From Longimicrobium sp. (GTDB lineage Bacteria; Gemmatimonadota; Gemmatimonadetes; Longimicrobiales; Longimicrobiaceae), in the NCBI GenBank assembly GCA_036389795.1, contig DASVWD010000243.1:1-53897 (forward strand): DNA of 53,897 nt, written 5' to 3'. The notes beneath the pieces were generated by a model. That model did no database searches. It worked only from the letters and a program-made list of their open reading frames with translations, and was not told the DNA's origin. The number at the start of each line of letters is the position of its first letter. Position 1 is the first letter of the stretch. A program made the translations under genes and the position numbers. Shown one piece after another: positions 17,076 to 35,424 of this stretch.

Positions 17076-17582
17076 GTGCGCGGCAGCGACGCCATGCTGG
17101 CGGCGGCGGGAGACGCGCACGCATTCGCCCGGCTCTACCGCGACCACGCGGGGCGCATCCACACCCTGGCGCGCCGCATGGCCAGCGAGGACGAGGCCGA
17201 CGAGCTCACCCAGGACGTGTTCGTGCGCGCCTGGGAGAAGCTGGGCACCTTCCGCGGCGAGTCGGCGTTCGGCACCTGGCTGCACCGGCTGGCCGTGAAC
17301 CTGATCCTGGCCAGGCGGGCCGCGGCCGGGCGGCGGCGGAGCAGGGAGGCGGGCGACGAGGCGCTGGAGATCACGCCCGGCAGGAGCGCCCCGCCCGAGC
17401 TCAGGATGGACTTCGAGAAGGCGGTCGAGTGGCTCCCCGACGGCGCGCGGCACGTGTTCGTGCTGTTCGACGTGGAAGGGTACCGCCACGAGGAGATCGC
17501 CCAGATGCTGGGCATCAGCGTGGGGACTAGCAAATCGCAGCTCCACCGGGCCCGGATGATTTTGCGGGAGCACCTGACATGA
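17076..17582 (+). CDS. ECF-family RNA polymerase sigma factor
   Basis: The protein is about 168 residues. Region 2 is AFARLYRDHAGRIHTLARRM with DEADELTQDVFVRAWEKLG and AFGTWLHRLAVNLIL; region 4 is YRHEEIAQMLGISVGTSKSQ followed by LHRARMILREHL. It directs transcription of its regulon when released by its anti-sigma partner, whose ATG overlaps this stop. The start is uncertain: the GTG at 17076 gives the usual lead-in before DAMLAAAGDAHAF, while ATG 17094 would cut helix 1 slightly and an upstream ATG at 16935 runs into repeat-like sequence. Confidence 0.85.
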   Translation: MRGSDAMLAAAGDAHAFARLYRDHAGRIHTLARRMASEDEADELTQDVFVRAWEKLGTFRGESAFGTWLHRLAVNLILARRAAAGRRRSREAGDEALEITPGRSAPPELRMDFEKAVEWLPDGARHVFVLFDVEGYRHEEIAQMLGISVGTSKSQLHRARMILREHLT

Positions 17583-18376
17583 GCGAAACACTGGACCGCC
17601 ACGCCTGGGCCGACCGGCTCTCGGAGTACCTGGACGACGAGCTGCCGCCGCCCGAGCGCGCGGCGCTGGACGAGCACCTGCGCGAGTGCGCCGGCTGCCG
17701 GGCCGTGCTGGAAGACCTGCGGCGGGTGAGCGTCCGCGCGAAGGCCCTGCGCGACCGCGACCCGGACCAGAACCTCTGGCCCGAGATCGCCCGGCGCATC
17801 GGCCGGCCCGAGGCGGCGTGGGCCGTGGCGGGCGGGGGCGACGAGGGCGACGAGCTGGCCGCGCGGCGCCGCCGCAAGGTATGGGCGCCCTGGCTCGGCG
17901 CCGGGGCGGCGGCCGCCGCCGTGCTGGTGCTGGGGATCGGCATCGGCCGCTTCACGGCGCCCGGCGACCCCGAGCTGCCCACCGCGCGCGTCGAGGCCCC
18001 CGCGCCGGGGACGCCGCTCACCTCCGACCCCTACCGCCTGGCCGCGGTGCAGCACCTGTCGCGCACCGAGGCGCTGCTCACCACGTTCCGCGCCGAGGCC
18101 GGGCGCGGCACCACCGACCCGGCGGTGGCCGGGTGGGCCGACGACCTCCTCACCCAGACCCGCCTGCTGCTCGACTCACCGGCGGCCGACGACCCCAGGC
18201 TGCGCGCGCTGCTGGAAGACCTGGAGCTGGTGCTCGCCCAGATCGCCCGGCTGCCGCGCCAGAACCCCGACACCGAGGTGGACCTCGCCGAGCGCGCCAT
18301 TGAGCGGAGCCGCGTGCTCCCGCGCATGCGCACGCTGGTGCCGGCGGGCCCCGCTGCCCTTCAGGGAGAATCGTGA
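17579..18376 (+). CDS. Zinc-finger anti-sigma factor, membrane-spanning
   Basis: The protein has 265 residues. The N-terminal zf-HC2 domain has the HxxxCxxC motif in LDEHLRECAGCRAVLEDL (about residues 34-45). One membrane helix lies at AWLGAGAAAAAVLVLGIGIG-like sequence near residues 110-130. The outer domain of about 130 residues is helical (SRTEALLTTFRAEAG, WADDLLTQTRLLLDS, LRALLEDLELVLAQIARL). It overlaps the sigma gene by 4 bp (ATGA) and so is expected to bind and hold that sigma factor at the membrane. Its stop overlaps the start of the first HEAT-repeat gene. The signal sensed by the outer domain is unknown. Confidence 0.87.
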   Translation: MSETLDRHAWADRLSEYLDDELPPPERAALDEHLRECAGCRAVLEDLRRVSVRAKALRDRDPDQNLWPEIARRIGRPEAAWAVAGGGDEGDELAARRRRKVWAPWLGAGAAAAAVLVLGIGIGRFTAPGDPELPTARVEAPAPGTPLTSDPYRLAAVQHLSRTEALLTTFRAEAGRGTTDPAVAGWADDLLTQTRLLLDSPAADDPRLRALLEDLELVLAQIARLPRQNPDTEVDLAERAIERSRVLPRMRTLVPAGPAALQGES

Positions 18377-19734
18377 TGCACATCCGAACCGTCGCGCGGG
18401 TCCTGCTGGCCGCCGCGCTCGCGGCCGCGCCGCTGGCCGCGCAGGGAAGGCAGGAGATCGTCCTGGCCGGGTGGGCCGCCGGGTCCGCGGTGCGCGAGTG
18501 GCCGCAGGACCCCGCCCACGAGCTGTACACGGAAGGGCGCGAGGCGCTCAACGACGACGACTACGCGCGCGCCGCCCGGCTCTTCCAGCGGGTGCGCCAG
18601 GATCATCCGCGCTCGAGGTACGTCCCCGACGCGCTGTACTGGGAGGCGTTCGCCCGCTACCGGATCGGCGGCAACGACCAGCTGCGCATGGCGCTGGGAG
18701 GGCTGGACGCGCTGCGCCGCGACCACCCCCGCGCCACCGCCCGGCGCGACGCCGACGAGCTGGCCACGCGCATCCGCGGCGAGCTGGCGCGCCGCGGCGA
18801 CTCGCGCGCGGCCGAGCGGGTGACCCAGGGCGCCGAGCGCGCCGTGCAGGAGTGCGGCCGCGGGGGCGACGACGACACGAGGACCGCGGCGCTGAACGCG
18901 CTGCTGCAGATGGACGCCGACCAGGCGCTGCCGATCCTGCGCCGGGTGCTGGCGCGCCGCGACGCCTGCTCGGAGGAGCTGCGCAAGCACGCCGTGTTCC
19001 TGGTGGCGCAGAAGCGCAACGCCGACACCGAGAACCTGCTGCTGTCCATCGCCCGCGACGACCCGAGCTCCGAGGTGCGCGAGCAGGCGGTGTTCTGGCT
19101 CTCCCAGGTGGGCACCGAGCGCGCGGTGGACATCCTCGGCGAGATCCTGCGCTCCTCGCGCGACGCCGGGCTCCAGGAGAAAGCGGTGTTCGCCCTGTCG
19201 CAGCATCGGAGCCCCCGCGCGGCGCAGCTTCTCCGCCAGACCGCCGAGCAGGCGGGTCCGCGGTCCGTGCGCGAACAGGCGATCTTCTGGCTCGGGCAGC
19301 GGCGCTCGCAGGAGAACGCCGAGTACCTGCGCGGGCTCTTCCGCCGGCTGGACGACCGCGAGCTCAAGGACAAGGTGATCTTCTCGCTCTCGCAGATGCG
19401 CGGCGTCGGCAACGACCGCTGGCTGCTGGAGGTGGCGCGCGACGAGAGCCAGCCCGAGGAGGTGCGCAAGCAGGCGATCTTCTGGGCCTCGCAGGCGGGG
19501 GTGCCGCTCTCCGACGTGTCCGACCTGTACGACCGCGTGCGCGACCCCGAGGTGAAGGAGCAGATCATCTTCGCGCTCTCGCAGCGCGGGCGCGAGGCGG
19601 CGGCCATCGACAAGCTGATCCAGATCGCGAAGAGCGACCGCGACCCCAAGATGCGGGAGAAGGCCGTGTTCTGGCTGGGCCAGTCGCGCGACCCCCGCGC
19701 CACCCGCGCCATCCAGGAGATCATCGACCAATGA
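18376..19734 (+). CDS. Secreted HEAT-repeat protein 1
   Basis: This protein of about 452 residues has a signal peptide (VLLAAALAAAPLAAQ). After a TPR-like pair of helices (AARLFQRVRQDHPRSRYVPD) come about nine HEAT-type repeats, each centred on a form of VREQAVFWLSQ (examples: REQAVFWLSQ, QEKAVFALSQH, REQAIFWLGQR, KDKVIFSLSQM, REKAVFWLGQSRDPRA). Such solenoids bind other proteins. The gene overlaps the anti-sigma gene at TGATG and the next HEAT gene at ATGA. The sigma factor, its anti-sigma and these two periplasmic scaffolds thus form one four-gene operon, and the HEAT proteins may be the output or the sensor input of the sigma pathway. The ATG at 18376 is preferred over GTG 18373. Confidence 0.82.
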   Translation: MHIRTVARVLLAAALAAAPLAAQGRQEIVLAGWAAGSAVREWPQDPAHELYTEGREALNDDDYARAARLFQRVRQDHPRSRYVPDALYWEAFARYRIGGNDQLRMALGGLDALRRDHPRATARRDADELATRIRGELARRGDSRAAERVTQGAERAVQECGRGGDDDTRTAALNALLQMDADQALPILRRVLARRDACSEELRKHAVFLVAQKRNADTENLLLSIARDDPSSEVREQAVFWLSQVGTERAVDILGEILRSSRDAGLQEKAVFALSQHRSPRAAQLLRQTAEQAGPRSVREQAIFWLGQRRSQENAEYLRGLFRRLDDRELKDKVIFSLSQMRGVGNDRWLLEVARDESQPEEVRKQAIFWASQAGVPLSDVSDLYDRVRDPEVKEQIIFALSQRGREAAAIDKLIQIAKSDRDPKMREKAVFWLGQSRDPRATRAIQEIIDQ

Positions 19735-20564
19735 GAACCAGGCGAATCGGCATGGCCGCCCTGGCGGGAGGGCTCCTGGCCCTCCCCTCCGCCGGGTGCG
19801 CCGAGGCCCAGGGAGCCAGCCAGGAGGCGATCGCGGCGCGGGTGCGGCGCGCGCCCGACGGCGAGGTGCGGATGCACTTCACCTCGCGCCCCGGGGTGTG
19901 CGGGAGCGTGGACGGCCACAACGTCTCCATCCAGGACCGCCGGCGCGGCGGCACCATCATGCACCGGGGCAACTGGTCGGACTACCGCGAAGACCGGGAC
20001 TGCATCGAGGGCCCCACCCACGTGCGGATGCTGGTGCGCGGCGGCCGCGTGGCCGACGTGAGCACCCGGGTGGCGCACGACTGGCCCCGCGAGGGCGCCG
20101 GCCGGGTGACCGACCTGGGGCGGGTGGGCGCGCGCGAGGCGGCCGACTACCTGCTGGACCTGGCCGAGAGCTCGGACGACCGCGACGCGGGCAAGGAAGC
20201 GATCTTCCCGGCCACGCTGGCCGACAGCGTGGTGACCTGGCCGCGGCTGCTGCGCATCGCCCGGAGCGGCCAGGCGGGGCAGGAGGCGCGCAAGTCGGCG
20301 GTGTTCTGGCTCAGCCAGCAGGCGGGCGACCAGGTGACGCGGGGGATCTCGGACCTGGTGGACGACGACGACCAGGACCGCGAGGTGCGCGAGGCCGCCG
20401 TCTTCGCGCTCTCGCAGCGCCCGCGCGACGAGTCGGTGCCGGCACTCATCCACATCGCCCGCACGCACCGCGACCCGCACATCCGGAAGACGGCGCTCTT
20501 CTGGCTGGGGCAGAGCCGCGATCCACGGGCGATCGAGCTGTTCGAGGAGATCCTGTCGCAGTAG
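19731..20564 (+). CDS. Secreted HEAT-repeat protein 2
   Basis: The 277-residue protein has a signal peptide (MAALAGGLLALPSAGCAEAQ); the Cys could make it a lipoprotein, but the lipobox is imperfect. Residues about 40-130 form a distinct domain with two cysteines (RPGVCGSVDGHNVSIQD and EDRDCIEGPTHVRMLVRGG). The C-terminal half has about four HEAT repeats of the same type as the preceding gene (RKSAVFWLSQQ, REAAVFALSQR, RKTALFWLGQSRDPRA). The final repeat is nearly identical to the last repeat of protein 1, which suggests duplication. It is the last gene of the operon and is followed by a hairpin terminator. Confidence 0.8.
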   Translation: MRTRRIGMAALAGGLLALPSAGCAEAQGASQEAIAARVRRAPDGEVRMHFTSRPGVCGSVDGHNVSIQDRRRGGTIMHRGNWSDYREDRDCIEGPTHVRMLVRGGRVADVSTRVAHDWPREGAGRVTDLGRVGAREAADYLLDLAESSDDRDAGKEAIFPATLADSVVTWPRLLRIARSGQAGQEARKSAVFWLSQQAGDQVTRGISDLVDDDDQDREVREAAVFALSQRPRDESVPALIHIARTHRDPHIRKTALFWLGQSRDPRAIELFEEILSQ

Positions 20565-20874: not shown

Positions 20875-22260
20875 ATGACCGAACCCAGCGACCGCATCCG
20901 CGCGCTCCGCGCGGCCGTGGGCGTGGCGCCCGAAGACGCCGAGCTGCGCCGCCTGCTGGCCGACGCGCTCCTGGACGCCAGCGACGCCGCCGAGGCCGAG
21001 GCCGTGCTGCGCGAGGGGCTGAAGGCGGCCCCCGAGGACGCGGCGCTGCGCCGGGCCCTGGCGCGCGCCTTCCACCGGCAGGGCAAGCTCTCCGCCGCGC
21101 TCGTCGTGGTCGAGGACCTGCTGCGCGCGGGCGAGGGCGGCGCCGAGGTGCACCTGCTGCACGCGCGCGTCCTGCTCGACTCGGGCGAGCTGGGGCGCGC
21201 GCGCCAGGCGTACCGCGAGGCCACCGCCGCCGGCGCCACGGACGTGGAGCTGGCCGCCCGCCTGGGGAGCGCCCAGCCGCCGCGCGAGCGCCGCGTCCCC
21301 GCCGAGGCGGAGGAGGCGCTCGAGCGCCAGGAGCGGGAGCGCTGGCGGGACAGCGGGGAGGAGGACGACGACGAAGACGACGAGGACGACGCCGCGGGCG
21401 CGCGCACGGAGAAGCCGCGCATCACCTTCGCGGACGTGGGCGGGATGGACGCGCTCAAGGAGGAGATCCGCCGCAAGATCATCCATCCGCTCCGACACCC
21501 CGAGCTCTACCGCGCCTACGGGAAGCAGGCCGGCGGCGGGATCCTGATGTACGGCCCGCCGGGGTGCGGCAAGACGTACCTGGCGCGCGCCACCGCGGGC
21601 GAGGCCGAGGCGGCGTTCCTCGCCGTGGGCATCCACGAAGTGCTCGACATGTGGCTCGGGCAGAGCGAGCAGAACCTGAACGCGCTCTTCGAGCGGGCGC
21701 GGGCGGTGGCGCCGTGCGTCCTCTTCTTCGACGAGGTCGACGCGCTGGCGGCGCGCCGGAGCGACCTGCGCACCAGCGCGGGGCGCACCCTCATCAACCA
21801 GTTCCTGGCCGAGCTGGACGGGGTGGCCGCCTCCAACGAGGGGGTGCTGGTGCTGGCCGCCACCAACGCGCCCTGGCACCTGGACCCCGCCTTCCGCCGC
21901 CCGGGGCGCTTCGACCGCGTCCTCTTCGTCCCCCCGCCCGACGAGGCCGCGCGCGCTGCGATCCTGCGGGTGCTCCTGCGCGGCCGCCCCGTGGAGGCGG
22001 TCGATTACGCGAAGCTCGCGAAGCGCACCGACGGCTTCTCGGGGGCGGACCTCTCCGCGGCGGTGGAGCTGGCGGTGGAGCGGAAGCTGGACGACGCCAT
22101 CCGCGCCGGCCGCCCCGTCCCCGTCACCGGCGCCGACCTGCTCGAGGCGGCCAAGACGGTGCGCCCCACCGCCCGCGAGTGGTTCGCCACGGCGCGCAAC
22201 TACGTGCTCTACGCCAACGAGGGCGGCCAGTACGACGACGTGAAGCCGTACCTCCGCTAG
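20875..22260 (+). CDS. TPR - acidic linker - AAA+ ATPase
   Basis: The protein has 461 residues. Residues 1-140 are helical pairs of TPR type (ALLDASDAAEAEAVLREGLK, ARAFHRQGKLSAALVVVEDL). Around residues 160-178 is a very acidic low-complexity stretch (EEDDDEDDEDD). The rest is one AAA+ module of the CDC48/FtsH class: TFADVGGMDALKEEI at its start, GPPGCGKTYLA as Walker A, CVLFFDEVDALAARR as Walker B, VLVLAATNAPWHLDPAFRR as sensor 1, and RRPGRFDRVLF as arginine fingers. Such ATPases unfold or remodel proteins as hexamers. No protease domain is attached. The five genes that follow encode TPR membrane proteins, so this ATPase may act on, or be recruited by, that membrane complex through TPR contacts (inference). 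Confidence 0.88.
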   Translation: MTEPSDRIRALRAAVGVAPEDAELRRLLADALLDASDAAEAEAVLREGLKAAPEDAALRRALARAFHRQGKLSAALVVVEDLLRAGEGGAEVHLLHARVLLDSGELGRARQAYREATAAGATDVELAARLGSAQPPRERRVPAEAEEALERQERERWRDSGEEDDDEDDEDDAAGARTEKPRITFADVGGMDALKEEIRRKIIHPLRHPELYRAYGKQAGGGILMYGPPGCGKTYLARATAGEAEAAFLAVGIHEVLDMWLGQSEQNLNALFERARAVAPCVLFFDEVDALAARRSDLRTSAGRTLINQFLAELDGVAASNEGVLVLAATNAPWHLDPAFRRPGRFDRVLFVPPPDEAARAAILRVLLRGRPVEAVDYAKLAKRTDGFSGADLSAAVELAVERKLDDAIRAGRPVPVTGADLLEAAKTVRPTAREWFATARNYVLYANEGGQYDDVKPYLR

Positions 22261-22490
22261 GTGCCGCCGTGATTCGGGATCGCTCACCGAAGTTGGTTGA
22301 TCAGTCGATCTTTGCTGTCATTCCGAGTCCCGGCCACACGGAACCGGCATCTGGATAGGTGACGGCAGGGCCGAGGAATCTTCTCACCTCGCCAGGTGGG
22401 TTGCGCGCGGCAGCGGCACGGATGCCGACCGGGCACGATTCCCGTGATTGCTGATCCTTCCACCCGATCCCACCGGGCGTAGTCGAAGCG
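22261..22490. other. 230-bp gap between AAA+ ATPase and the TPR array
   Basis: I see no gene in this stretch. It is less GC-rich than its neighbours and holds TCTGGATAGG and GAGGAATCTTCTCACCTCGC, but no convincing promoter or terminator. It separates the ATPase gene from the array and may carry the array's own promoter. Confidence 0.4.
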
Positions 22491-23744
22491 ATGCCGCCGC
22501 ACCCGGCCCTCGCGCGGGCGAAGCTCCTGATGGAACGCGGCCGCTGGGCGATGGCGGCCGGCGAGCTGCGCCGCGCGCTCCACGACGAGCCCGACGACGC
22601 GCTGCTGCACGCGTACCTGGCGCTCTGCCTGGTGGAGGACCCGGCCCGGCTGGACGAGGCGCAGGAAGAGGCGCTCTGGTCCACGGCGAAGGACCCGCTG
22701 CAGCCGCTGGCGTGGTACGCCGCCAGCTACGTGGCGGCGCGCCGGGGGAACGGGCCGATGGCGGAGGACGCGGCCCGGGTCGCGCTGTCGCTCTCCGCTG
22801 AGTCGACCCCGCTGCTGGCGCACATGGCGTCGCTGATGCTGGCGCAGGGGCGGGTGAAGGCGGCGCTGGAGACGGCCGGGCACGGGCTGGCGGTGGACCC
22901 GGACCACGTGGGGTGCCTGCTGGCCGCCGGGACCGCGCTCTCGCGCAAGGGGCGGCACGACGAGGCGCAGGCCGCGCTCGCGCGGGCGCTGGAGCGCGAG
23001 CCCGAGGACGCCGGGGTGCACGCCCGGGTGGGGTGGGCGCTCCTGCGCCGGGGCGACGCGGCCGGGGCGGTGCGCCACTTCCGCGAGTCGCTGCGGCTGG
23101 ACCCCACGCGCGAGGAGGAGCGGGGCGGGCTGATGGAGGCGCTCAAGGCACGCAACCCCGTCTACCGCGCCCTGCTGCGCGCGTGGCTGCGGCTGCCGTG
23201 GGTCCCGCCCAGCCTGAAGTGGCTGGCGGTGGTCGCCGGGATGCTGGCCGTGATCGGCATCCTGATGCTGGAGATGGAAGGCCTCCCCACGTGGATCGCG
23301 CTCCCGCTGGAGGTCGCGGTGGTGGCCGCCGTCCTCCTCACCTGGACGGCCGGCCCGCTCTTCGACCTCCTCCTCTTCGGCGACCCGCTGGGCCGGCACG
23401 CGCTCACGCCCACGCAGCGGGCGGGCGCCGTGGCGATGGCCGCGACGCTCCTGGCCGCGGCGGCCGTCGCGGTGGCCGCGCTGGCGACGGGCGAGGGGCT
23501 GTTCGGCTTCACCGCCGCGCTCCTGGCGCTCTACACCGTCCCGATCGCCGCCACGCTGCGGGCGCGGCCGGGCCGGGCGCGCGCGCTCACCGCCGCGTAC
23601 ACGCTCCTGCTGGTCGTCCCCGCCGCGATGTTCGTCACCCTGCAGGCGCGCGGCGCGGGCGACCCCGCGGTGTGGTTCGGGATCGCCTGCGGGGGCATGG
23701 CGTTCTCGGACCTGGTCTCGGACCAGTTCTCCGGGCGGATCTGA
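22491..23744 (+). CDS. TPR plus transmembrane protein, array member 1
   Basis: The protein has 417 residues. Residues 1-220 hold about six TPR units (AAGELRRALHDEPDDALLHA, EAQAALARALEREPEDAGVH, GAVRHFRESLRLDPTREEE). A junction motif ALKARNPVYRALLRAWL ends the solenoid. The remainder holds five to six membrane helices. Between helices 2 and 3 is LLLFGDPLGRHALTPTQR, whose DPxGRxAL core recurs in members 2 and 3. There is no signal peptide, so the TPR part should face the cytoplasm, where the AAA+ ATPase is. The start at ATG 22491 follows a spacer from the ATPase gene. Enzyme motifs are absent. Confidence 0.82.
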   Translation: MPPHPALARAKLLMERGRWAMAAGELRRALHDEPDDALLHAYLALCLVEDPARLDEAQEEALWSTAKDPLQPLAWYAASYVAARRGNGPMAEDAARVALSLSAESTPLLAHMASLMLAQGRVKAALETAGHGLAVDPDHVGCLLAAGTALSRKGRHDEAQAALARALEREPEDAGVHARVGWALLRRGDAAGAVRHFRESLRLDPTREEERGGLMEALKARNPVYRALLRAWLRLPWVPPSLKWLAVVAGMLAVIGILMLEMEGLPTWIALPLEVAVVAAVLLTWTAGPLFDLLLFGDPLGRHALTPTQRAGAVAMAATLLAAAAVAVAALATGEGLFGFTAALLALYTVPIAATLRARPGRARALTAAYTLLLVVPAAMFVTLQARGAGDPAVWFGIACGGMAFSDLVSDQFSGRI

Positions 23745-23777
23745 TCCCGGACCACTTTCGCACTTTCGCACTCGAAC

Positions 23778-25034
23778 ATGACGCAACACAGGCACCGCGC
23801 GCTGGTGCTGATGGAGCAGGGGCGGCCCGAGCTGGCCGAGGGCGAACTGCGCCAGGCGCTGCAGCACGACCCGCACGACCCGGTGCTGCACGCGTGGCTC
23901 TCGCTCTGCCTGAGCGACCTGAAGCGCCCCGCCGAGGCGCTCGCCGAGGCGCGCGAGGCGGTGACGCTCGCGCCCGACCTGGGGACCAGCCACTACGCGC
24001 TGGCGCTGGCCCTGGACGGCTCGGGCCGGCCCGACGAGGCGGAGCGGGCGATCGGCGCGGCGCTGGACCTGGAGCCCGACGACCCCGACTACTTGGCGGT
24101 GCTGGCGGCGCTTCACGCGCGCCGCGGCCGCTGGGACCGGGCGCTGGCCGCGGCCGACGCGGGGCTGGAGACCGACCCCGAGCACGCCGCCTGCGCCAAC
24201 CTGCGCGCGCAGGCGCTGGTGCACCTGGGGCGCCGGAACGAGGCCGCGGCCACGCTGGGCGCGGCGCTCTCGCGCGACCCCGAGAACGCGCACACGCACG
24301 CCAACCAGGGGTGGGCGCTCCTGCACCGGGGCGAGCCGCGGCGCGCGCTGGAGCACTTCCGCGAGGCGCTCCGGCTGAACCCGCACTCCGAGTGGGCGCG
24401 CGCCGGCCTGGTGGAGGCGATGAAGGCGCGCAACCCCGTGTACGCGGCGCTGCTGCGCTACTTCCTGTGGATGCAGCGGCTCCCCGTCCGCACGCGCTGG
24501 ATCGTGATCCTGGGCGGCCTGTTCGGGTTCCGGCTGCTGGGCCGCGTCCTGCGCTCGCAGCCGGGGCTGGAGCCCGCGGCGCTGGCGGTGGCGGTGCTCT
24601 ACCTGGGCTTCGTGCTGGTGAGCTGGACCGCCGACCAGCTCTTCAACCTGGTGCTCTTCCTGGACCCGGTGGGCCGGTACGCACTCTCGCGCGAGCAGCG
24701 CGTGGGCGCCGCGCTCCTGGGCGTGCCGCTGGCGGCGGCGCTCGGGCTGGCCGCGGCGGGGCTCGCCACGGGGGATGCGACGCTGCTGGCGGGCGCGGGG
24801 CTGTCGGCCGGGCTGATGCTGCCGCTGGCGGGGACGCTGCGCGCGGAAGGGACGGGGCGGCTCGTCCTGGGCGCGATCTCCGCCTGCGTGGCCGCGCTGC
24901 TGGTGGTGTCGGCCATCGCCGCGTGGACCTCGGCGCTGGGCGGGATGGACACCGCGTCGGGGCTGGTGGGGGTGGCGCTGCTGGCCATCGTCGCCTCGTC
25001 GTGGATCGGCAACTTCGTCTCCCTGCGCGACTGA
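23778..25034 (+). CDS. TPR plus transmembrane protein, array member 2
   Basis: This 418-residue protein has the same plan as the preceding gene. TPR units span residues 1-215 (LAEGELRQALQHDPHDPVLH, EAERAIGAALDLEPDDPDYL, RALEHFREALRLNPHSEWAR). The shared junction motif is AMKARNPVYAALLRYFLW. Five or six membrane helices follow, with LVLFLDPVGRYALSREQR between the second and third. It starts 33 bp after member 1 with no terminator between them, indicating an operon. It is the closest match to member 1 by eye, so the array probably grew by tandem duplication followed by divergence. Confidence 0.82.
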   Translation: MTQHRHRALVLMEQGRPELAEGELRQALQHDPHDPVLHAWLSLCLSDLKRPAEALAEAREAVTLAPDLGTSHYALALALDGSGRPDEAERAIGAALDLEPDDPDYLAVLAALHARRGRWDRALAAADAGLETDPEHAACANLRAQALVHLGRRNEAAATLGAALSRDPENAHTHANQGWALLHRGEPRRALEHFREALRLNPHSEWARAGLVEAMKARNPVYAALLRYFLWMQRLPVRTRWIVILGGLFGFRLLGRVLRSQPGLEPAALAVAVLYLGFVLVSWTADQLFNLVLFLDPVGRYALSREQRVGAALLGVPLAAALGLAAAGLATGDATLLAGAGLSAGLMLPLAGTLRAEGTGRLVLGAISACVAALLVVSAIAAWTSALGGMDTASGLVGVALLAIVASSWIGNFVSLRD

Positions 25035-25052
25035 GGCGCCGCGCCGCACGCC

Positions 25053-26321
25053 ATGCACGAAGCCGCCGACCCGTACGCCCGCGCGCAGCTGCTGCTGGAC
25101 CGCCGGCGTCCCCGCGAGGCCGAGGCGGAGCTCCGCCGCGCCCTGGGCGAACGCCCGGGCGACGCGGAGGGGCACGCGCTGCTGGCGCTCGCGCTGCAGC
25201 GGCAGGAGCGCCCGGACGAGGCCCTCCGGGAAGCGCGCCGGGCGGTGGGGCTCGACCCTGAGTGGGGGTACCCGCGCTTCGTGCTGGCCACGCTGCTGGT
25301 GGAGCGGGGGAGCGCGCGGGCGGCGGAGCCCGAGGCGCGCGAGGCGGTGCGGCTGGCGCCGAACGACCCGGCGTGCTGGTGGGTGCTGGCGGCGGCGCTC
25401 CTGGCGCGCGACCGTGCTCGTGACGCGCTGGAGGCGGCGGAGCACGGGCTGGAGATCGACCCGGACGATCGCGACTGCCTGGAGGCGCGGGCGCGGGCGC
25501 TCCTGGCGCTGGGGGACCACGAGGGCGCAGGGGAGACGGTGCGGAGCGCGCTGGAGCTGGAGCCCGAGGCGGCGGCGCTGCACTCGCTGGAGGGCTTGCG
25601 GCTGCTGGAAGAGGGGCGCGCGGCCGAGGCGGTGGCGAGCTTCCGCGAGGCGCTGCGGCTGGATGCGTCCGACGAGCGTGCCCGGGACGGGCTGCTGGAG
25701 GCGCTCAGGGCGCGCAACCCGCTCTACCGCGCGGTGCTGCGGGCGGTGCTCTGGCTGATCCGGCGCGGGAGCCGGGTGACGGCGGCCGTGCCCGTGGCGG
25801 CGTACGTCGTCTTCCTGGCGCTCTGGATGGCCTTCTACGCCTACCCGGAGGCCGCGCCCTACCTGGTGCCGGCGATGGCGCTGCTCGTCGCCCCGTTCGC
25901 CCTTTTCCACCTGGCCAACGTGCTGGTCAGGGTGCTGCTCCTGTTCGACCCCGTGGGACGCGACGCGCTGCGCCCCGCCGACCGCCGCGCCGCGTGGTGG
26001 CTGCTGGCCGGCCTGGTGATCCTGCTCCCCGCGGCCATCGTAGCCGTGCTGCTGGCGGGCGACCCCGGCCTCGGCGTCGTGGCGATGGTGGTGTTCCTGT
26101 GCATGGCCGTGTACCACACGGCGGAGCTGGAGCCCGGCCCTGCGCGCCGGGCCCTCTCCGCGTACTGCGTGCTGCTGGCGGCGGCGCTCGCCTGGGCTTA
26201 TCCCCTCGTGCTCTCCGCCAGGTCCAGCATCGTGACGGTCGCGTTCGTGGTGGGCGCGCTGATCGGGGCGAGGACTCCCGAGCTGGCCCAGCAGGTGTTC
26301 CGGCTGCGGACGCGGGAGTAG
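25053..26321 (+). CDS. TPR plus transmembrane protein, array member 3
   Basis: The 422-residue protein is the third copy. TPR units span residues 1-220 (EAEAELRRALGERPGDAEGH, AAEPEAREAVRLAPNDPACW, AVASFREALRLDASDERARD). The junction motif is ALRARNPLYRAVLRAVLW. Membrane helices include VAAYVVFLALWMAFYA, LVPAMALLVAPFALFHLANV and WWLLAGLVILLPAAIVAVLL; the loop motif is LLLFDPVGRDALRPADR. It starts only 18 bp after member 2. The conserved junction and DPxGR motifs across three diverged copies imply a common function rather than passive repeats. Confidence 0.82.
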   Translation: MHEAADPYARAQLLLDRRRPREAEAELRRALGERPGDAEGHALLALALQRQERPDEALREARRAVGLDPEWGYPRFVLATLLVERGSARAAEPEAREAVRLAPNDPACWWVLAAALLARDRARDALEAAEHGLEIDPDDRDCLEARARALLALGDHEGAGETVRSALELEPEAAALHSLEGLRLLEEGRAAEAVASFREALRLDASDERARDGLLEALRARNPLYRAVLRAVLWLIRRGSRVTAAVPVAAYVVFLALWMAFYAYPEAAPYLVPAMALLVAPFALFHLANVLVRVLLLFDPVGRDALRPADRRAAWWLLAGLVILLPAAIVAVLLAGDPGLGVVAMVVFLCMAVYHTAELEPGPARRALSAYCVLLAAALAWAYPLVLSARSSIVTVAFVVGALIGARTPELAQQVFRLRTRE

Positions 26322-26364
26322 CGGCGCGCGTCGCCTCCCGGTTTCGATCCACCCGCAACGCGAA

Positions 26365-27369
26365 ATGACTCCGCGCCTCGCCCTCGCCATCGACCTGATC
26401 AACGGCGGCCGCCCGGACCTGGCCGAGCGCGAGCTGCGCAGGCACCTGGCGCGGGAGCCGGAGGACGCCGGGGCGCACGGGCTGCTCGGGGTGGCGCTGG
26501 CGGCGCAGCGGAAGGGCGCCGAGGCGCTCGCCGCGGCGGAGGAGGGAGCCCGGCTCGAGCCGGGGCACCCCTGGGTCCTGCAGGCGTTCGCCGAAGCGCA
26601 CGTGCGCCTGGGCCGCGGCAGGCGCGCCGAGGCCGCGGCGCGCGAGGCGCTGGCGCTCCATCCCCTGGTGCCGTACTTCCACGCGCTGCTCGCCCGCGCG
26701 CTCCTGGTCCGCTCGTGGCTGAGGCCCTTCTCCCGCGCGCTGAACGAGGAGGCGCTCCGGGCCGCCGAGGCCGGGCTCGCCCTCGACCCCGTGAACGTGG
26801 AGTGCATGCTGCAGCGGGCGCAGGCGCTGGTCCGGCTCGGCCGGGTCGAGGAGGCGCGCCGCGCTTCCGAGGCGGCGCTGCGGCTCTCGCCGGAGAAGGC
26901 GGCGCCGCACGCGGTGCACGGGGTGGTGGAGCTGGCCTCGGGGAGCCGCGAGCGTGGCCGCGCCCGCCTGCGCGAGGCGCTGCGGCTGGACCCGGCCGAT
27001 CCCTTCGCCCGGGTGCGCCTCGAGTTGAGCGGCGACCCGCCCCTGCGCGACTTCGCCGTGCTCGTGCTCCAGGCGCAGGACTGGAAGGTTCCCCTCGGGG
27101 CCGTCTTCGCGGTCCTGCTCGCGACCACCTGCGTGGCCCTGGCGCGGCCGGCGCCGGGCGAGTTCCCGTGGCTGCCGCTCGTGCCGCTCGGCTACGTTCT
27201 CCTGCCGCTGCTGATCCTCGGGCCGACGTACGCGCGCCACCGCCACCTGCTCACCGACCTCCGCGAACCGGGCGCTCTCCAGCCGCGGGAGCGGTTCTGG
27301 GCCCGGGCGAGAATCGTGCTCTGGGCCGTGTTCGGGCTGGGCTCCGCCGCGATGGCCCTGTTCTTCTGA
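26365..27369 (+). CDS. TPR plus transmembrane protein, array member 4 (short, diverged)
   Basis: This 334-residue protein has a TPR region (residues 1-225; LAERELRRHLAREPEDAGAH, ARRASEAALRLSPEKAAPHA, GRARLREALRLDPADPFARV) and a much shorter membrane part of about three helices (FAVLLATTCVALA, WLPLVPLGYVLLPLLILG, IVLWAVFGLGSAAMALFF). The ARNPxY junction and DPxGR loop are not preserved. It lies 43 bp after member 3 and is clearly part of the same array. It may have a regulatory or adaptor role in a hetero-oligomeric complex, or be decaying; sequence cannot tell. Confidence 0.78.
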   Translation: MTPRLALAIDLINGGRPDLAERELRRHLAREPEDAGAHGLLGVALAAQRKGAEALAAAEEGARLEPGHPWVLQAFAEAHVRLGRGRRAEAAAREALALHPLVPYFHALLARALLVRSWLRPFSRALNEEALRAAEAGLALDPVNVECMLQRAQALVRLGRVEEARRASEAALRLSPEKAAPHAVHGVVELASGSRERGRARLREALRLDPADPFARVRLELSGDPPLRDFAVLVLQAQDWKVPLGAVFAVLLATTCVALARPAPGEFPWLPLVPLGYVLLPLLILGPTYARHRHLLTDLREPGALQPRERFWARARIVLWAVFGLGSAAMALFF

Positions 27370-27451
27370 ACCGGGGCCGCGCCCGGCGGCGCGGCTCGGA
27401 ATCACGGCCCCGGCTCCCCGCCCGCTCCGCTCCCAGCTCCCGACGCCGCCC

Positions 27452-28771
27452 GTGTACTTCGCCGACTCCTCCTTCCAGTCGCCGCGCGCCCGCGAGGCGT
27501 TCGAGCAGCTGCAGCGCGGCCGGGCGGACCTGGCCGAGCCGCTCCTGCGGGCCTGGGCCGCGGCGGAGCCGCACCACCCGGCCGCGCGCGGGCTGCTGGG
27601 GGTGTGCGTGGCGCTGCTGGGGCGCGGGGAGGAGTCGCTGCGCGAGGCCGAGGCCGCCGTCCGGCTGGCGCCCGAGTGGGACGGGGCGCACGGGCTGCTC
27701 GCGACCGTCCACCTGCTCCGCGAGCGCCCGGTGCCGGCGGAGCGGGCCGCGCGCGAGGCGCTGGCGCGCGCCCCGGACGACGTGGAGCACCACGCGCTGC
27801 TGGCCGCCGCGCTGCTGGGCCAGGGCCTCCGCCGGGACGCGTACGAGGCGGCCGAAGCGGGCCTGCGGCTCGACCCGCTGCACCCCGGCTGCACGCGGGT
27901 GCGGGTTCACGCCCTCCTGCTCCTGGGCCGCGCCGCCGAGGCCGAGGGGGCGGCCGCCGCGGCGCTCGCCCGCCACCGGGGCGACGCGGAGCTGCTGGGG
28001 CTGCACGCCTGGGCCCTCCTGGCGCAGGGCGAGAGGGCCCAGGCGGAGAAGCAGGCCCAGGAGGCGCTGCGCCGGGGAGGCGGGGGCGCCTACGCCCGGC
28101 TGGTGCTGGAGCAGGCCCGCACGGTGCACGACCCGCTCTGGCGGACGCTGGTGGCCGTCACGGACGAGTACCTCGACTGGGGGCCGCTCGTCCTCCTCCC
28201 CCTGGCGTTCGCGAGCGCGGCCGCGATCGCCATCGTGGGAGACGACGCGCCGGGGGTCGTGTGGCTGGCCTTCCTCCCGCACCTGGTCGCCGCGGTGTTC
28301 ACGGTGCTCGGCCTGGTCCTGTCGGGCTTCTACGACTCCGCGCGCCGCGGCCGGCTGCGCGGGCCCGACGCGCTCCGGCCTGAGGAGCAGGCACGCGCGC
28401 GCGGGATCGCCGCTGCGCTGATGCTCGGCTCCACGGGCGTGGCGGCGGCGGCGGTCGCGGGGGGGCTGCGCTGGACCGCCGTGGCCGTGCTGGCGGCGCT
28501 CCTCTCCATCCCGGTGCGCGCGGTGGCAGAGGCGAGCGGGGAGGGCGAGTGGGACTTCGCGACGGCGTGGCTGGTGCTGGCGACGGTGGCCGCGCTGCTC
28601 GCCTCCGGCGCCTGGCTCTTCGCGCCGCTGCCGGCCCCGCTGCGGGCGCTCGCGCTGCTGGCGGCCGCGGCGGTGTCGCTCCCGGCCGGCGTGCTGGCGC
28701 GGCGGGCCGGGCGGCGCAAGCGGGAGGTGTCGGCCGCCGCGGCTCTGGTGCGCGACGACCTCTCCCGCTAG
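27452..28771 (+). CDS. TPR plus transmembrane protein, array member 5
   Basis: The 439-residue protein starts at GTG 27452 (VYFADSSFQSPRAREAF) after an 82-bp gap. TPR units span about residues 15-210 (LAEPLLRAWAAAEPHHPAAR, EAEAAVRLAPEWDGAHGLLA, AAEAGLRLDPLHPGCTRVRV). The junction reads RTVHDPLWRTLVAVTDEYLD, a diverged form of the ARNPxY motif. The membrane part has about six helices. A basic tail (RRAGRRKREVSAAA) ends the protein. It is the last gene before the TPP riboswitch of thiC and shares no terminator with it that I can see. Confidence 0.8.
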   Translation: MYFADSSFQSPRAREAFEQLQRGRADLAEPLLRAWAAAEPHHPAARGLLGVCVALLGRGEESLREAEAAVRLAPEWDGAHGLLATVHLLRERPVPAERAAREALARAPDDVEHHALLAAALLGQGLRRDAYEAAEAGLRLDPLHPGCTRVRVHALLLLGRAAEAEGAAAAALARHRGDAELLGLHAWALLAQGERAQAEKQAQEALRRGGGGAYARLVLEQARTVHDPLWRTLVAVTDEYLDWGPLVLLPLAFASAAAIAIVGDDAPGVVWLAFLPHLVAAVFTVLGLVLSGFYDSARRGRLRGPDALRPEEQARARGIAAALMLGSTGVAAAAVAGGLRWTAVAVLAALLSIPVRAVAEASGEGEWDFATAWLVLATVAALLASGAWLFAPLPAPLRALALLAAAAVSLPAGVLARRAGRRKREVSAAAALVRDDLSR

Positions 28772-31975: not shown

Positions 31976-32217
31976 GAGGCAGCGGATAACCTCGCAGGGC
32001 ATCCCGACTGCGGACGGGTAATCAGACCAACTCACAATACCTCCCCAGAAGGAGCCCTGATCTGCCGTGCGACTCCCGGACCTCGGTGGCCGCTTTCCCC
32101 GACAGGAGGAACGTCGCGTCGATGGAGCCCAAACTGCCGGCTCACGTTTCACTTGACGTTCCTTTTCGATGCTACTAAACATGAACGCAACTTGCTTGTT
32201 GCGCCTCCTCCATTCCA
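31976..32217. other. Left gap of the second cargo segment
   Basis: I see no gene here. Composition falls from GC-rich to AT-richer towards 32150. A possible promoter for the following gene is TTGACG (32153-32158) with TAAACA (32176-32181) 17 bases on. There is no recombinase or tRNA. Confidence 0.35.
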
Positions 32218-32748
32218 ATGAACATGTATACGTTTCTGCAGGAAATTCCTAATTCATCCGATACTGCCCAAGGGGCAGCATCTCCACCCGACGTGATCTC
32301 TATTGAAGGCATTTTACGGTTTGTGTTCTCTGGATTAGTCTTGATGGCTATTTCGGTGATCTTGTCTGGTAAGTTCCTGGCTCAAAGGATCAAGCTTCCA
32401 GTGAGGTCGTCACAGTTGTTTCAGATACCGCTACCTGGAATTCTCAAGATTGGTGCAACCGACGACGAGGTGATCCTCGGCTTTACTGGACTGATTATAA
32501 CACTCCTTGCAACTGGGTCTCTATTCGGCAAGCGAGCCCACGTCTTTTTTTCCAACAACTTCGGAATAGATCCAGGACAGTTCAACTCACTATGTATTCT
32601 CAGCGCTTTCCTCGCAGTAATTTGGTCGTTCGTATTATTTCTTCTGCTAGGTATTCGCAGCCAGAGCAATTTAGAGCCTGTCGCCGATAAGCATGCGGAA
32701 ATTGTTCGCTCTCTCACCGAACGCTCGCAGAGAGGTGATCGTGTCTGA
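32218..32748 (+). CDS. Small membrane protein in AT-rich island
   Basis: The 176-residue protein has an N-terminal soluble tail, a first membrane helix (ILRFVFSGLVLMAISVILSG), a second hydrophobic stretch (EVILGFTGLIITLLATGSLF) and a third (CILSAFLAVIWSFVLFLLLG). It ends in a charged tail (EPVADKHAEIVRSLTERSQR). No family is recognised. It overlaps the following MinD-like ATPase gene by 8 bp, so the two should be made together and probably form one complex at the membrane. Codon use with many A/T third positions differs sharply from the flanking genome and points to recent transfer. ATG 32218 is the first start; another lies at 32224. Confidence 0.7.
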   Translation: MNMYTFLQEIPNSSDTAQGAASPPDVISIEGILRFVFSGLVLMAISVILSGKFLAQRIKLPVRSSQLFQIPLPGILKIGATDDEVILGFTGLIITLLATGSLFGKRAHVFFSNNFGIDPGQFNSLCILSAFLAVIWSFVLFLLLGIRSQSNLEPVADKHAEIVRSLTERSQRGDRV

Positions 32749-33913
32749 ATCTTGGGGCAGCCCGGCTCGGGAGATTTTGGACAGTAGTGCGTTAGGTGAA
32801 GCGCCTGTTCCGAAAAATGCTTCAGATGCTCGCCAGCCATCCAAGGTACTCGCCATAGTGAGCGGAAAAGGTGGCAGCGGTAAAACCATGATCGGTGCAG
32901 CTATTGCTACTATCCTTAGTGAATTTGCGCCCGGTAGAACGATTCTTTTGGATTCTGATGTCGGTACGGGTGGGCTAACGTACTATTTTGGTCTCTCCCT
33001 CGCTCCTCGGCCCGGTCTTGGATTGGCGAAACTGGCGGGAGCGCCGAAGGAGAGGATTACCGTTGAAGCCGTAGAGACATTGATACAGAAAGTCAAGGGA
33101 CTTGAGCATCTTCGGTTTTTAGGACTCGGTGATCATCGGCGCTTGTACCGGGAACTCGAGCAACGAGAGAATATTGCCGAGTTACTTAGCGCAACTGTCC
33201 GGGCTCTTCGGGGATTGGCCAATTTCATTGTGGTGGATTGTCGCGGAGGCATTGATGCGGAGTCGATAGCTGTTTGCCAAGAGGCAGATGATATATTGTT
33301 GGTGGTTGAGCCGGATACCACATCCTTACAAGCTGGTCAGCACGTTGTTGATATTCTCAGCGAGCACAATTTGGACTCGCGATTGATAGGGTTTGTAATC
33401 AATAAAGTCTTCGATGACCCGGGAACGATCGTGCGGGCTGGATCTGGTTTGTTTCGGTGTCGGTATTTAGCATCGATTCCGTTCGATCTCGATGCCACCC
33501 GTGCCTTTTATATTGGGGAGATTCCTCGCCTTAGCAGCAATTTCGGAATCCATGTATGGCAAGGTCTTTTTGCCGCTTATGATGACCTGATTCCGCCCCC
33601 ATTCCGTCGTAGTTGGGAATTCCGTGACTTCAGAGAAGTAGGTTTGACGAACACAGAATCAGTTCGTGGCGGAATGGTATACGCCAGTCTCTTGATGTTA
33701 CTTGGTATTACGTTCTCTATTCGATTCTTTCTTCTATATCCGCCGACTGTCCGTCAGAACTGGCTTGTACTACAGCTTTTTATCTACAGCGTGGCTGGCT
33801 GGCTCCTTGGACTGGCAGCTAGCCTCGAGCCCACGCGACGCCTACTGGGAAGAGCAACGGCTACATACATTCGAATACTGAAGCGTGTTTTTAGCAAACT
33901 CACTAAGGGATAG
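32741..33913 (+). CDS. MinD/ParA-like P-loop ATPase with C-terminal membrane helices
   Basis: This protein of about 390 residues has a deviant Walker A, AIVSGKGGSGKTMIGAAIAT (KGGxGKT), a switch strand RTILLDSDVGTGGLTYYFG, and NFIVVDCRGGIDAESIAVC as Walker B. VLVVEPDTTSLQ-type sequence and LIGFVINKV complete the MinD/ParA (SIMIBI) fold. Residues about 310-365 add two membrane helices (VYASLLMLLGITFSIRFFLL, LVLQLFIYSVAGWLLGLAAS), which ordinary ParA and MinD proteins lack. The GTG at 32741 is preceded by GAGAGG and overlaps the upstream stop; a longer frame from 32693 is less likely. With its overlapping membrane partner it forms a two-gene cassette between two thiC remnants. The role is unknown; partitioning, membrane-bound signalling and phage defence are all possible. 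Confidence 0.85.
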   Translation: MSESWGSPAREILDSSALGEAPVPKNASDARQPSKVLAIVSGKGGSGKTMIGAAIATILSEFAPGRTILLDSDVGTGGLTYYFGLSLAPRPGLGLAKLAGAPKERITVEAVETLIQKVKGLEHLRFLGLGDHRRLYRELEQRENIAELLSATVRALRGLANFIVVDCRGGIDAESIAVCQEADDILLVVEPDTTSLQAGQHVVDILSEHNLDSRLIGFVINKVFDDPGTIVRAGSGLFRCRYLASIPFDLDATRAFYIGEIPRLSSNFGIHVWQGLFAAYDDLIPPPFRRSWEFRDFREVGLTNTESVRGGMVYASLLMLLGITFSIRFFLLYPPTVRQNWLVLQLFIYSVAGWLLGLAASLEPTRRLLGRATATYIRILKRVFSKLTKG

Positions 33914-33918
33914 AATAG

Positions 33919-34203
<285 letters not shown>

Positions 34204-34236
34204 TTGTCGGGATAAGCGATATTTCTAAGTAGGTAG

Positions 34237-34319
34237 TCCTAAGTGCTGAGTGCTGAGTCCTAAGTTGCCGGATCGGATATCGTCTGTGCAGTTCAGCACT
34301 TAGCACTTAGCACTCAAGA
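34237..34319. repeat. Second hairpin element of AGTGCTTAG words
   Basis: TCCTAAGTGCTGAGTGCTGA and its inverse CAGCACTTAGCACTTAGCAC flank a short loop. It resembles the copy at 3427-3522 and sits between thiC remnant 2 and the restriction gene. Confidence 0.75.
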
Positions 34320-34377
34320 CCTGAAAGTCGACAGAACTTCTGAGCACTTACTTAGGAACTCAGTCCTGGACGTTGGT

Positions 34378-35424
34378 ATGAGCCCGAAACCGGCTTTAAG
34401 TAACGCGACTACGTTGTGGGTGGTCCATATCGGCAACGACGACCGGATTGCGCTTCGCGCCCGTGAGGAGGGTTTTGTCTGTATCGGTTGGACGGCGATG
34501 GGCGACCTGTCGCCGTACGACACTCGTCCTAAGATGCGGGCCGCGATGGAGCAGGCGTATCCGAACTGGAGCCCGAAGACGGTCAGCTCCTCGTATGGTC
34601 AGACGTACCGGTTTGCGCACGAAATGAAAGTGGGCGACCCAATCGTGTTCCCGGTCCGTCCCACAGCGGAGATCGCAATAGGGAGGATCGCTGGACCGTA
34701 CAGCTGGTCCAGCGACCCCGACCTCGCCGCGAACGATTACAACAACGTCCGACCTGTCAGCTGGCTGAAGATTGTTCCGAGAACTGCCTTCTCGCAGGCG
34801 GCCCTACACAGTTTCGGATCTTTTCTCTCTGTTAGCACCTCCGACGACTATCTCGAAGAGGTGCAGACCGTCCTCGCCAGAGACATGGCGACGACGGAAC
34901 TGGTGCCTGGACCGGCCGAGGAACCGGAGACGGAGGAGGAGGCTGGCGCCGGTCTCAATCTGTACGAGACCGCGCGCCAGGAGACAGAGGATTTCCTTCT
35001 CAAAGCTTGGCAGCGGACGGGGGCGGACTTCGAACACGTTGTCGCCGGGCTGTTTGAGGCGCTAGGGTACACGGCTACCGTGACACCGCGTAGCGGTGAT
35101 CATGGCGTAGACGTCATCGCGCACCCCGACCCGCTCGGTCTCGAGCGGCCGTACATCAAAATTCAGGTGAAGAGCGGCACGGGCACCATCGGTGAGCCCG
35201 AGGTGAACCAGCTCCGCGGTCTGCTTCACCTGGAGGAGCAGGGCGTGTTTGTATCACTAGGCAAGTTCACTCCCGCTGCTCATGCCATAGAACGCAACAG
35301 CAGGAATCTCACCCTGATTGGTCCGAAGCAGTTCGTGAAGCTGTTCTTGGATCATTACGAGAAACTCGACGCGACTTGGAAGGCGAAATTCCCACTAAAA
35401 AAGGTCTACGTTCCTTTCAGCTAG
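34378..35424 (+). CDS. Mrr-like restriction endonuclease with N-terminal PUA/EVE-like domain
   Basis: The protein has 348 residues. The C-terminal part (about 220-345) is an Mrr_cat nuclease domain: FEHVVAGLFEALGYTATVTP supplies the first Glu, GDHGVDVIAHPD the catalytic Asp, and IKIQVKSGTG the QxK pair; SLGKFTPAAHAIER and LIGPKQFVKLF follow as usual. The N-terminal part (REEGFVCIGWTAMGDLSP, FAHEMKVGDPIVFPV, EIAIGRIAGPYSW) resembles the EVE/PUA-like readers that bind modified cytosine. A modification-dependent restriction enzyme is therefore likely. It stands alone, without a methylase, just outside thiC remnant 2, and has a less GC-rich codon use than core genes. Confidence 0.82.
   Translation: MSPKPALSNATTLWVVHIGNDDRIALRAREEGFVCIGWTAMGDLSPYDTRPKMRAAMEQAYPNWSPKTVSSSYGQTYRFAHEMKVGDPIVFPVRPTAEIAIGRIAGPYSWSSDPDLAANDYNNVRPVSWLKIVPRTAFSQAALHSFGSFLSVSTSDDYLEEVQTVLARDMATTELVPGPAEEPETEEEAGAGLNLYETARQETEDFLLKAWQRTGADFEHVVAGLFEALGYTATVTPRSGDHGVDVIAHPDPLGLERPYIKIQVKSGTGTIGEPEVNQLRGLLHLEEQGVFVSLGKFTPAAHAIERNSRNLTLIGPKQFVKLFLDHYEKLDATWKAKFPLKKVYVPFS

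Follow-up and report, generated by a model that had tools for sequence, protein, structure and literature searches.

A CDC48-like AAA+ ATPase adjoins TPR-membrane protein genes in many bacterial phyla and is followed by a five-gene partner array in one Longimicrobium genome

The DNA analysed here (the window) is a 53,897-nt stretch of contig DASVWD010000243.1 from a 7.5 Mb Longimicrobium sp. genome (GCA_036389795.1), and all positions are numbered within it. Six genes follow one another on its + strand. The first (20875..22260; 461 aa) encodes an AAA+ ATPase with Pfam TPR, AAA and AAA_lid_3 domains. The next three encode proteins that join a TPR region to a membrane domain: M1 (22491..23744; 417 aa), M2 (23778..25034; 418 aa) and M3 (25053..26321; 422 aa). 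M4 (26365..27369; 334 aa) combines TPRs with a shortened membrane part, and M5 (27452..28771; 439 aa, GTG start) is a diverged member. The ATPase gene and M1 are separated by 230 bp, and the successive gaps from M1 to M5 measure 33, 18, 43 and 82 bp. An earlier, sequence-only reading had described six open reading frames on one strand, array gaps of 18–82 bp and a reduced fourth member, all of which were recovered. Its outline of a soluble AAA+ ATPase with its own TPR, followed by five TPR membrane genes, agrees with the Pfam domains and with transmembrane (TM) prediction: TPRs occur in all six proteins and AAA plus AAA_lid_3 in the ATPase alone, while TM segments are predicted in M1–M5, all beyond about residue 230, and none in the AAA protein. 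A promoter and terminator scan gave no signal above chance.

The ATPase consists of an N-terminal TPR region (approximately residues 6–135), a variable linker (136–182), the AAA large domain (183–355), and a lid with a conserved C-terminal tail (356–461). The segment that covers the AAA core, lid and tail (21421..22257, + strand) contains Walker A (GPPGCGKT), Walker B (FFDEVDA), a pore loop (MWLG), RRPGRFD and the tail EWFATARNYVLYANEGGQYDD, as located by alignment and by a motif tally in 85 relatives. In that tally, GPPGxGKT, hhhDExDA, RRPGRxD and the tryptophan tail are kept in 83–84 of the 85 ATPases; under strict patterns, sensor 1 is kept in 77 and an aromatic pore loop, mostly MWIG or MWLG, in 60. 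With Pfam matches to PF00004 (E = 8e-39) and PF17862 and with motifs present in 77–84 of 85 relatives, the protein is a classical AAA ATPase. Its AAA domain is closest to the CDC48, PAN and FtsH models, without reaching any NCBIfam cut-off, and the nearest solved AAA domains are those of p97/CDC48, the best stretch being the p97 D2 region. The family is characterized by a TPR region, a CDC48-like AAA domain and a conserved C-terminal tail, WFxTARNY. The sequence-only reading had also singled out an acidic linker. This linker is present in the window protein but is local to the genus and absent as a conserved feature in relatives, so it was rejected as a functional hallmark. As for the proposal that the ATPase drives or remodels its partners, the intact catalytic motifs suggest that such ATP-driven coupling may occur.

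What unites the membrane partners? Two signatures had been proposed for M1–M3, ARNPxYxxLLR and DPxGRxAL, and both are present on the + strand. The junction signature reads ARNPVYRALLR in M1 (23148..23180), ARNPVYAALLR in M2 (24426..24458) and ARNPLYRAVLR in M3 (25710..25742); the M3 copy ends in RAVLR rather than LLR and so departs from the proposed pattern. The loop signature reads DPLGRHAL in M1 (23382..23405), DPVGRYAL in M2 (24663..24686; family consensus LRLNRFGRLALS) and DPVGRDAL in M3 (25947..25970), and faint remnants of it persist in M4 (LREPGALQPRE) and M5 (LRGPDALRPEE). Membership of the signatures in a named family with known function would have undermined the proposal of a new system, but neither belongs to a named Pfam family; they are features of the partner family itself. 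The likeness of M1–M3 does extend past the TPRs, as had been claimed: when the C-terminal halves alone are compared, M1–M2 gives E = 7e-28, M1–M3 3e-15 and M2–M3 2e-11, with M4–M5 at 0.002. In a quick tree whose deep forks are weakly supported, M2 clusters with the core partners of the genus, and M4 and M5 form a second group together with genus relatives. M2 is orthologous to the ATPase-adjacent gene of other genus genomes, and M4 represents a second subfamily that is common to them. M2 is therefore the core partner, and M1 and M3–M5 are a lineage expansion around it. The genus also has short TPR proteins (L047:1100-1948, L049:1444-2265, L051:8939-9796) that measure about 280 aa and have a hydrophobic C-terminus; they adjoin the ATPase gene in one genome and are unlinked in others.

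The AlphaFold2 model of M2 (pLDDT 93.8, pTM 0.86) has six TPRs, a capping helix, an amphipathic helix and six TM helices. Arginine and lysine counts place the TPR side, the TM2–TM3 loop, the TM4–TM5 loop and the C-terminus in the cytoplasm. The DPxGRxAL site, which had been assigned to a membrane loop, does lie in a loop of the membrane part, but on this charge-based topology it is the cytoplasmic TM2–TM3 loop. Conservation is highest in the last TPR, the cap, the junction helix and the TM2–TM3 loop, that is, on the membrane-proximal cytoplasmic face. The membrane domain itself (amphipathic helix plus six TM helices; 24435..25028, + strand) matched no family in a Pfam search. Its profile retrieved only MthK from a PDB sequence search (E 0.44, judged a chance match), and a Foldseek search of the PDB gave a best E of 0.76. 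The best VIA-align Z was 10.1, a value usual among helical bundles, and hence no fold is claimed. Six TM helices are found in most partners, which might suggest that the membrane proteins form a transporter or a channel under the control of the ATPase. This is highly improbable: some partners have only a two-TM hairpin, there is no transporter similarity in Pfam or the PDB, and conservation is concentrated in the last TPR, cap, junction and cytoplasmic loop, with less in the later TM helices. Across the family, the membrane part ranges from two to six TM helices. Short partners (e.g., in G293) retain only the first two, and a recognizable membrane part was not found in some Actinomycetota partners. 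Because of this variation, the membrane part may serve mostly as an anchor.

The pairing of the ATPase with a TPR-membrane gene extends far beyond Longimicrobium. When 84,980 species genomes were scanned for the ATPase C-terminus, by patterns built around EWFxTARN, 254 relatives were obtained. The best 80 of the 254 come from Planctomycetota, Verrucomicrobiota, Cyanobacteriota, Obscuribacterales, Fibrobacterota, Calditrichota, Chloroflexota, Omnitrophota, Eremiobacterota, a deltaproteobacterium and Gemmatimonadota. Together with Actinomycetota loci found by tblastn of plasmid records (Streptomyces, Nonomuraea and Actinomyces), they make up a set of 85 loci. In the Actinomycetota records the next gene is annotated as a tetratricopeptide repeat protein, and in two of them it overlaps the ATPase gene by 4 bp. 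Three of the 85 loci end too soon to be informative. At 79 of the other 82, representing at least 10 phyla, a TPR-membrane gene adjoins the ATPase gene on the same strand, with a spacing that ranges from an overlap (often 1–4 bp) to about 1 kb and is mostly below 100 bp. The three loci with no adjacent partner (L060, L061 and L082) have a partner-like gene elsewhere in the same genome. Since related loci across phyla show the same pairing, the ATPase and TPR-membrane genes are read as an ancient two-gene module, not a local oddity. Apart from near relatives, no further gene accompanies the pair in a conserved manner across phyla. One locus (L094) comes from a contig classified as Candidatus Nealsonbacteria, although the partner gene on it clusters with those of Planctomycetota; the contig is possibly misbinned.

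The two genes also tend to be present or absent together. First, within the genus, the ATPase and an M2-type gene occur in 7 of 10 genomes, and both are absent from the other three at the thresholds used. In four genomes (G003, G004, G005 and G006), the end of the ATPase gene and the beginning of the M2-type gene share 1–4 bases, and in two of them (G004 and G006) an M4-type gene comes next. M1, M3 and M5 lie beside the ATPase in the window genome only, among the genus genomes. From the shared ATPase/M2-type pair it follows that the ATPase and M2 form the minimal genus unit. (The Longimicrobium/Gemmatimonadota records L057, L059 and L062 are the same loci as in the genus genomes.) Second, among 149 sampled Planctomycetota genomes, the ATPase profile matches 28, with one copy each; the partner profile matches 26 of these 28 and none of the 121 ATPase-negative genomes (Fisher p about 5e-27, which is indicative only, related genomes not being independent). 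In the remaining two, G229 and G375, diverged short partners adjoin the ATPase. Third, a full-length ATPase is found in 9 of 194 Cyanobacteriota genomes, and the same nine carry a strong or adjacent partner; in one (G467) the two genes are 3.8 Mb apart. Five further, small Cyanobacteriota genomes encode an ATPase with no TPR region. In all three loci examined (L191:2906-4662, L192:3718-5399, L193:3088-5008), it lies 2 bp from a TPR gene, and both of the TPR genes that could be read to the end have two predicted TM segments. Because these TPR-less ATPases keep their TPR neighbor, the idea that the ATPase TPR is strictly needed for the partnership was rejected.

The sequence-only reading had treated the AAA+ and TPR-membrane genes as one unit, and its proposal of a new system would have been undermined if the TPR-membrane genes were mostly found apart from the AAA+ gene. 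They are not: pairing at 79/82 loci and the co-occurrence in Planctomycetota and Cyanobacteriota both support a unit. The main counter-example to a strict pair comes from Gemmatimonadota. The ATPase occurs in 3 of 200 genomes of that phylum, each time with a partner-type gene beside it, and three other genomes encode a protein that resembles the partner and genuinely matches the membrane domain (L151:5712-6992, L152:4197-5450, L153:5403-6662) but have no ATPase at threshold. These orphan M2 relatives suggest that the membrane protein is able to function by itself or with another component. Two of them (L151 and L153) are followed by a gene for a protein of about 210 aa without a Pfam match. 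Where both proteins are present, their divergence is correlated (r = 0.65 versus a permuted maximum of 0.35 in 2000 permutations). Correlated divergence and shared operons fit complex formation, a common pathway or common descent alike.

How general is the array? A single downstream partner was detected at 70 of the 79 paired loci, two at eight and three at one. A hetero-oligomeric membrane complex, as the sequence-only reading had envisaged, cannot therefore be a general principle, most relatives having one membrane partner. Arrays have nevertheless arisen elsewhere too. In the planctomycete G229, a tandem run of four short TPR-membrane genes lies upstream of the ATPase gene, and in G318 two contigs carry five partner matches, of which three lie around the ATPase gene. 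Two partners are found in G305, G307 and G324 and at L070, L094, L108, L109, L123, L124 and L136, and three at L122. Given these multi-partner loci, the five-gene array in the window is the extreme of a recurring trend.

How does the pair compare with described systems? First, CDC48/p97 has the closest solved AAA domains and the same layout of Walker motifs, pore loop and arginine finger, and p97 has membrane proteins among its targets and works with membrane partners. The window ATPase differs in having one AAA domain instead of two, an N-terminal TPR instead of the p97 N-domain, and its own C-terminal tail, and it scores 225.7 bits against the TIGR01243 cut-off of 802.65. Second, EccA is likewise a soluble ATPase with an N-terminal TPR domain and a C-terminal AAA domain, and MoxR-Bat operons encode an AAA+ ATPase together with TPR and membrane proteins. 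By analogy, the ATPase could be an assembly chaperone that matures one membrane or secreted complex, with the TPR-membrane proteins as its platform. The EccA-like layout and the TPR-membrane nature of the partner fit this idea, and the array would suggest several related platforms. It is nonetheless unlikely: no third gene is conserved across phyla, the neighbors belong to ordinary metabolism, and the EccA model TIGR03922 gives 31 bits against a cut-off of 466.65. EccA also belongs to a different AAA group, and type VII partners were not seen beside the window ATPase family. MoxR in turn falls in a separate AAA+ group and Bat proteins have VWA domains, whereas the window AAA domain is PF00004 and none of the six proteins has a VWA or MoxR-type Pfam match.

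Third, an anti-phage or conflict system could be imagined, with the ATPase as sensor, the membrane proteins as effectors and the array as a source of diversity. The spread is patchy (3/200 Gemmatimonadota and 28/149 Planctomycetota genomes), there are paralogue arrays and both two-TM and multi-TM partners, and an Mrr-like gene lies 5.6 kb downstream in the window. On the other side, PADLOC matches to the AAA core are only of the IetA/TRIP13 type, and the IetA model (NF042959) reaches 117.5 bits against a cut-off of 510, with a TPR-membrane protein, rather than the subtilase partner of IetA, beside the ATPase at 79/82 loci. There is one ATPase per genome, and the pairing is broadly stable. Among 68 neighbors at 15 loci, all of low and middle GC, there was no enrichment of defense genes, only scattered one-off PADLOC matches among mostly housekeeping and metabolic genes. 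A defense role is thus very unlikely. Two other parts of the window deserve mention. The region 32001-35424 has a GC content of 0.51 versus about 0.74 around it. Its genes specify a small membrane protein, an ATPase resembling MinD/ParA whose membrane segments are C-terminal (32693-33913), and a restriction endonuclease of the Mrr-like type (34378-35424); the region looks acquired and is possibly a defense islet. Upstream, an ECF sigma factor, a zf-HC2 anti-sigma factor and two HEAT-repeat proteins are encoded in one run (17076-20564) that ends 310 bp before the ATPase gene. These genes were rejected as part of the system, since they were not seen near the ATPase in genus relatives, as judged by ORF layout, not domain search.

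Fourth, there is a likeness to the LapB (YciM)-FtsH system, in which a TPR membrane protein serves as adaptor to an AAA+ machine, a role the window partners may share. LapB is anchored by a single TM helix at its N-terminus and carries a C-terminal rubredoxin domain, whereas the anchor of the window partners is C-terminal, with two to six TM helices across the family; the NCBIfam LapB model gives 22 bits versus 363, in the TPR part only. FtsH is membrane-bound and carries a protease, whereas the window ATPase is soluble, with no TM segment and no peptidase match, and scores 210 bits against the FtsH cut-off of 600. In LapB, the TM helix makes the contact with FtsH and the cytoplasmic domains bring in LpxC (PMC9356133), a precedent for membrane quality control or regulated degradation in which the TPR-membrane proteins would be substrate adaptors and the ATPase would feed a separate protease. 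An AAA domain nearest to the CDC48, PAN and FtsH models, and one ATPase copy with a variable number of adaptors, would both suit such a module. Neither a protease domain in the ATPase nor a conserved protease neighbor at its relatives was seen, however, and degradation of this kind seems unlikely.

The observed core is a CDC48/FtsH-type ATPase, whose ATP-binding, hydrolysis, arginine-finger and pore-loop motifs are intact, encoded beside a membrane-anchored TPR protein in many phyla. The best explanation, which we hold to be somewhat probable, is a conserved two-component, membrane-docked AAA+ machine in which the TPR-membrane proteins are both dock and adaptor; gene pairing, co-occurrence and architecture point to it, and the docking model follows LapB-FtsH (PMC9356133). 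The TPR-membrane partner (M2 in the window) would tether a hexameric ATPase to the inner face of the cytoplasmic membrane, and the TPR arm and the R-rich cytoplasmic loop of the partner would bind the ATPase, the substrate or both. ATP-driven threading through the central pore could then extract, unfold or disassemble membrane or membrane-associated proteins. Because no protease was seen in the ATPase or as a conserved neighbor, the output would probably be remodeling or “hand-over” rather than built-in proteolysis. On the simplest reading, the five diverged partner copies in the window genome would be several docks or adaptors for different substrates that share one ATPase.

What would such a machine mean for bacteria? 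AAA+ machines with membrane adaptors are a known kind; the family, the membrane domain and the partner arrays appear to be undescribed, and a description of the ATPase/TPR-membrane pair was not found in the open-access literature. It is quite possible, if short of probable, that the pair represents an undescribed, phylum-spanning system for membrane-protein extraction, with a CDC48-like ATPase, its own TPR docks with a membrane domain lacking a Pfam or clear PDB match, and repeated adaptor arrays around one ATPase gene. To our knowledge, protein extraction from the cytoplasmic membrane in bacteria is known mainly from FtsH. If the proposal is true, bacteria would have a second AAA+ unit, lacking a protease and equipped with a membrane dock of its own, as their equivalent of dislocation by p97 or Msp1. 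Carriers of the pair include Planctomycetota, Verrucomicrobiota (among them Akkermansia), filamentous cyanobacteria and actinomycetes, and the pair is open to testing because it is compact and found in cultivable genera. The partner arrays would provide natural variation for mapping adaptor specificity.
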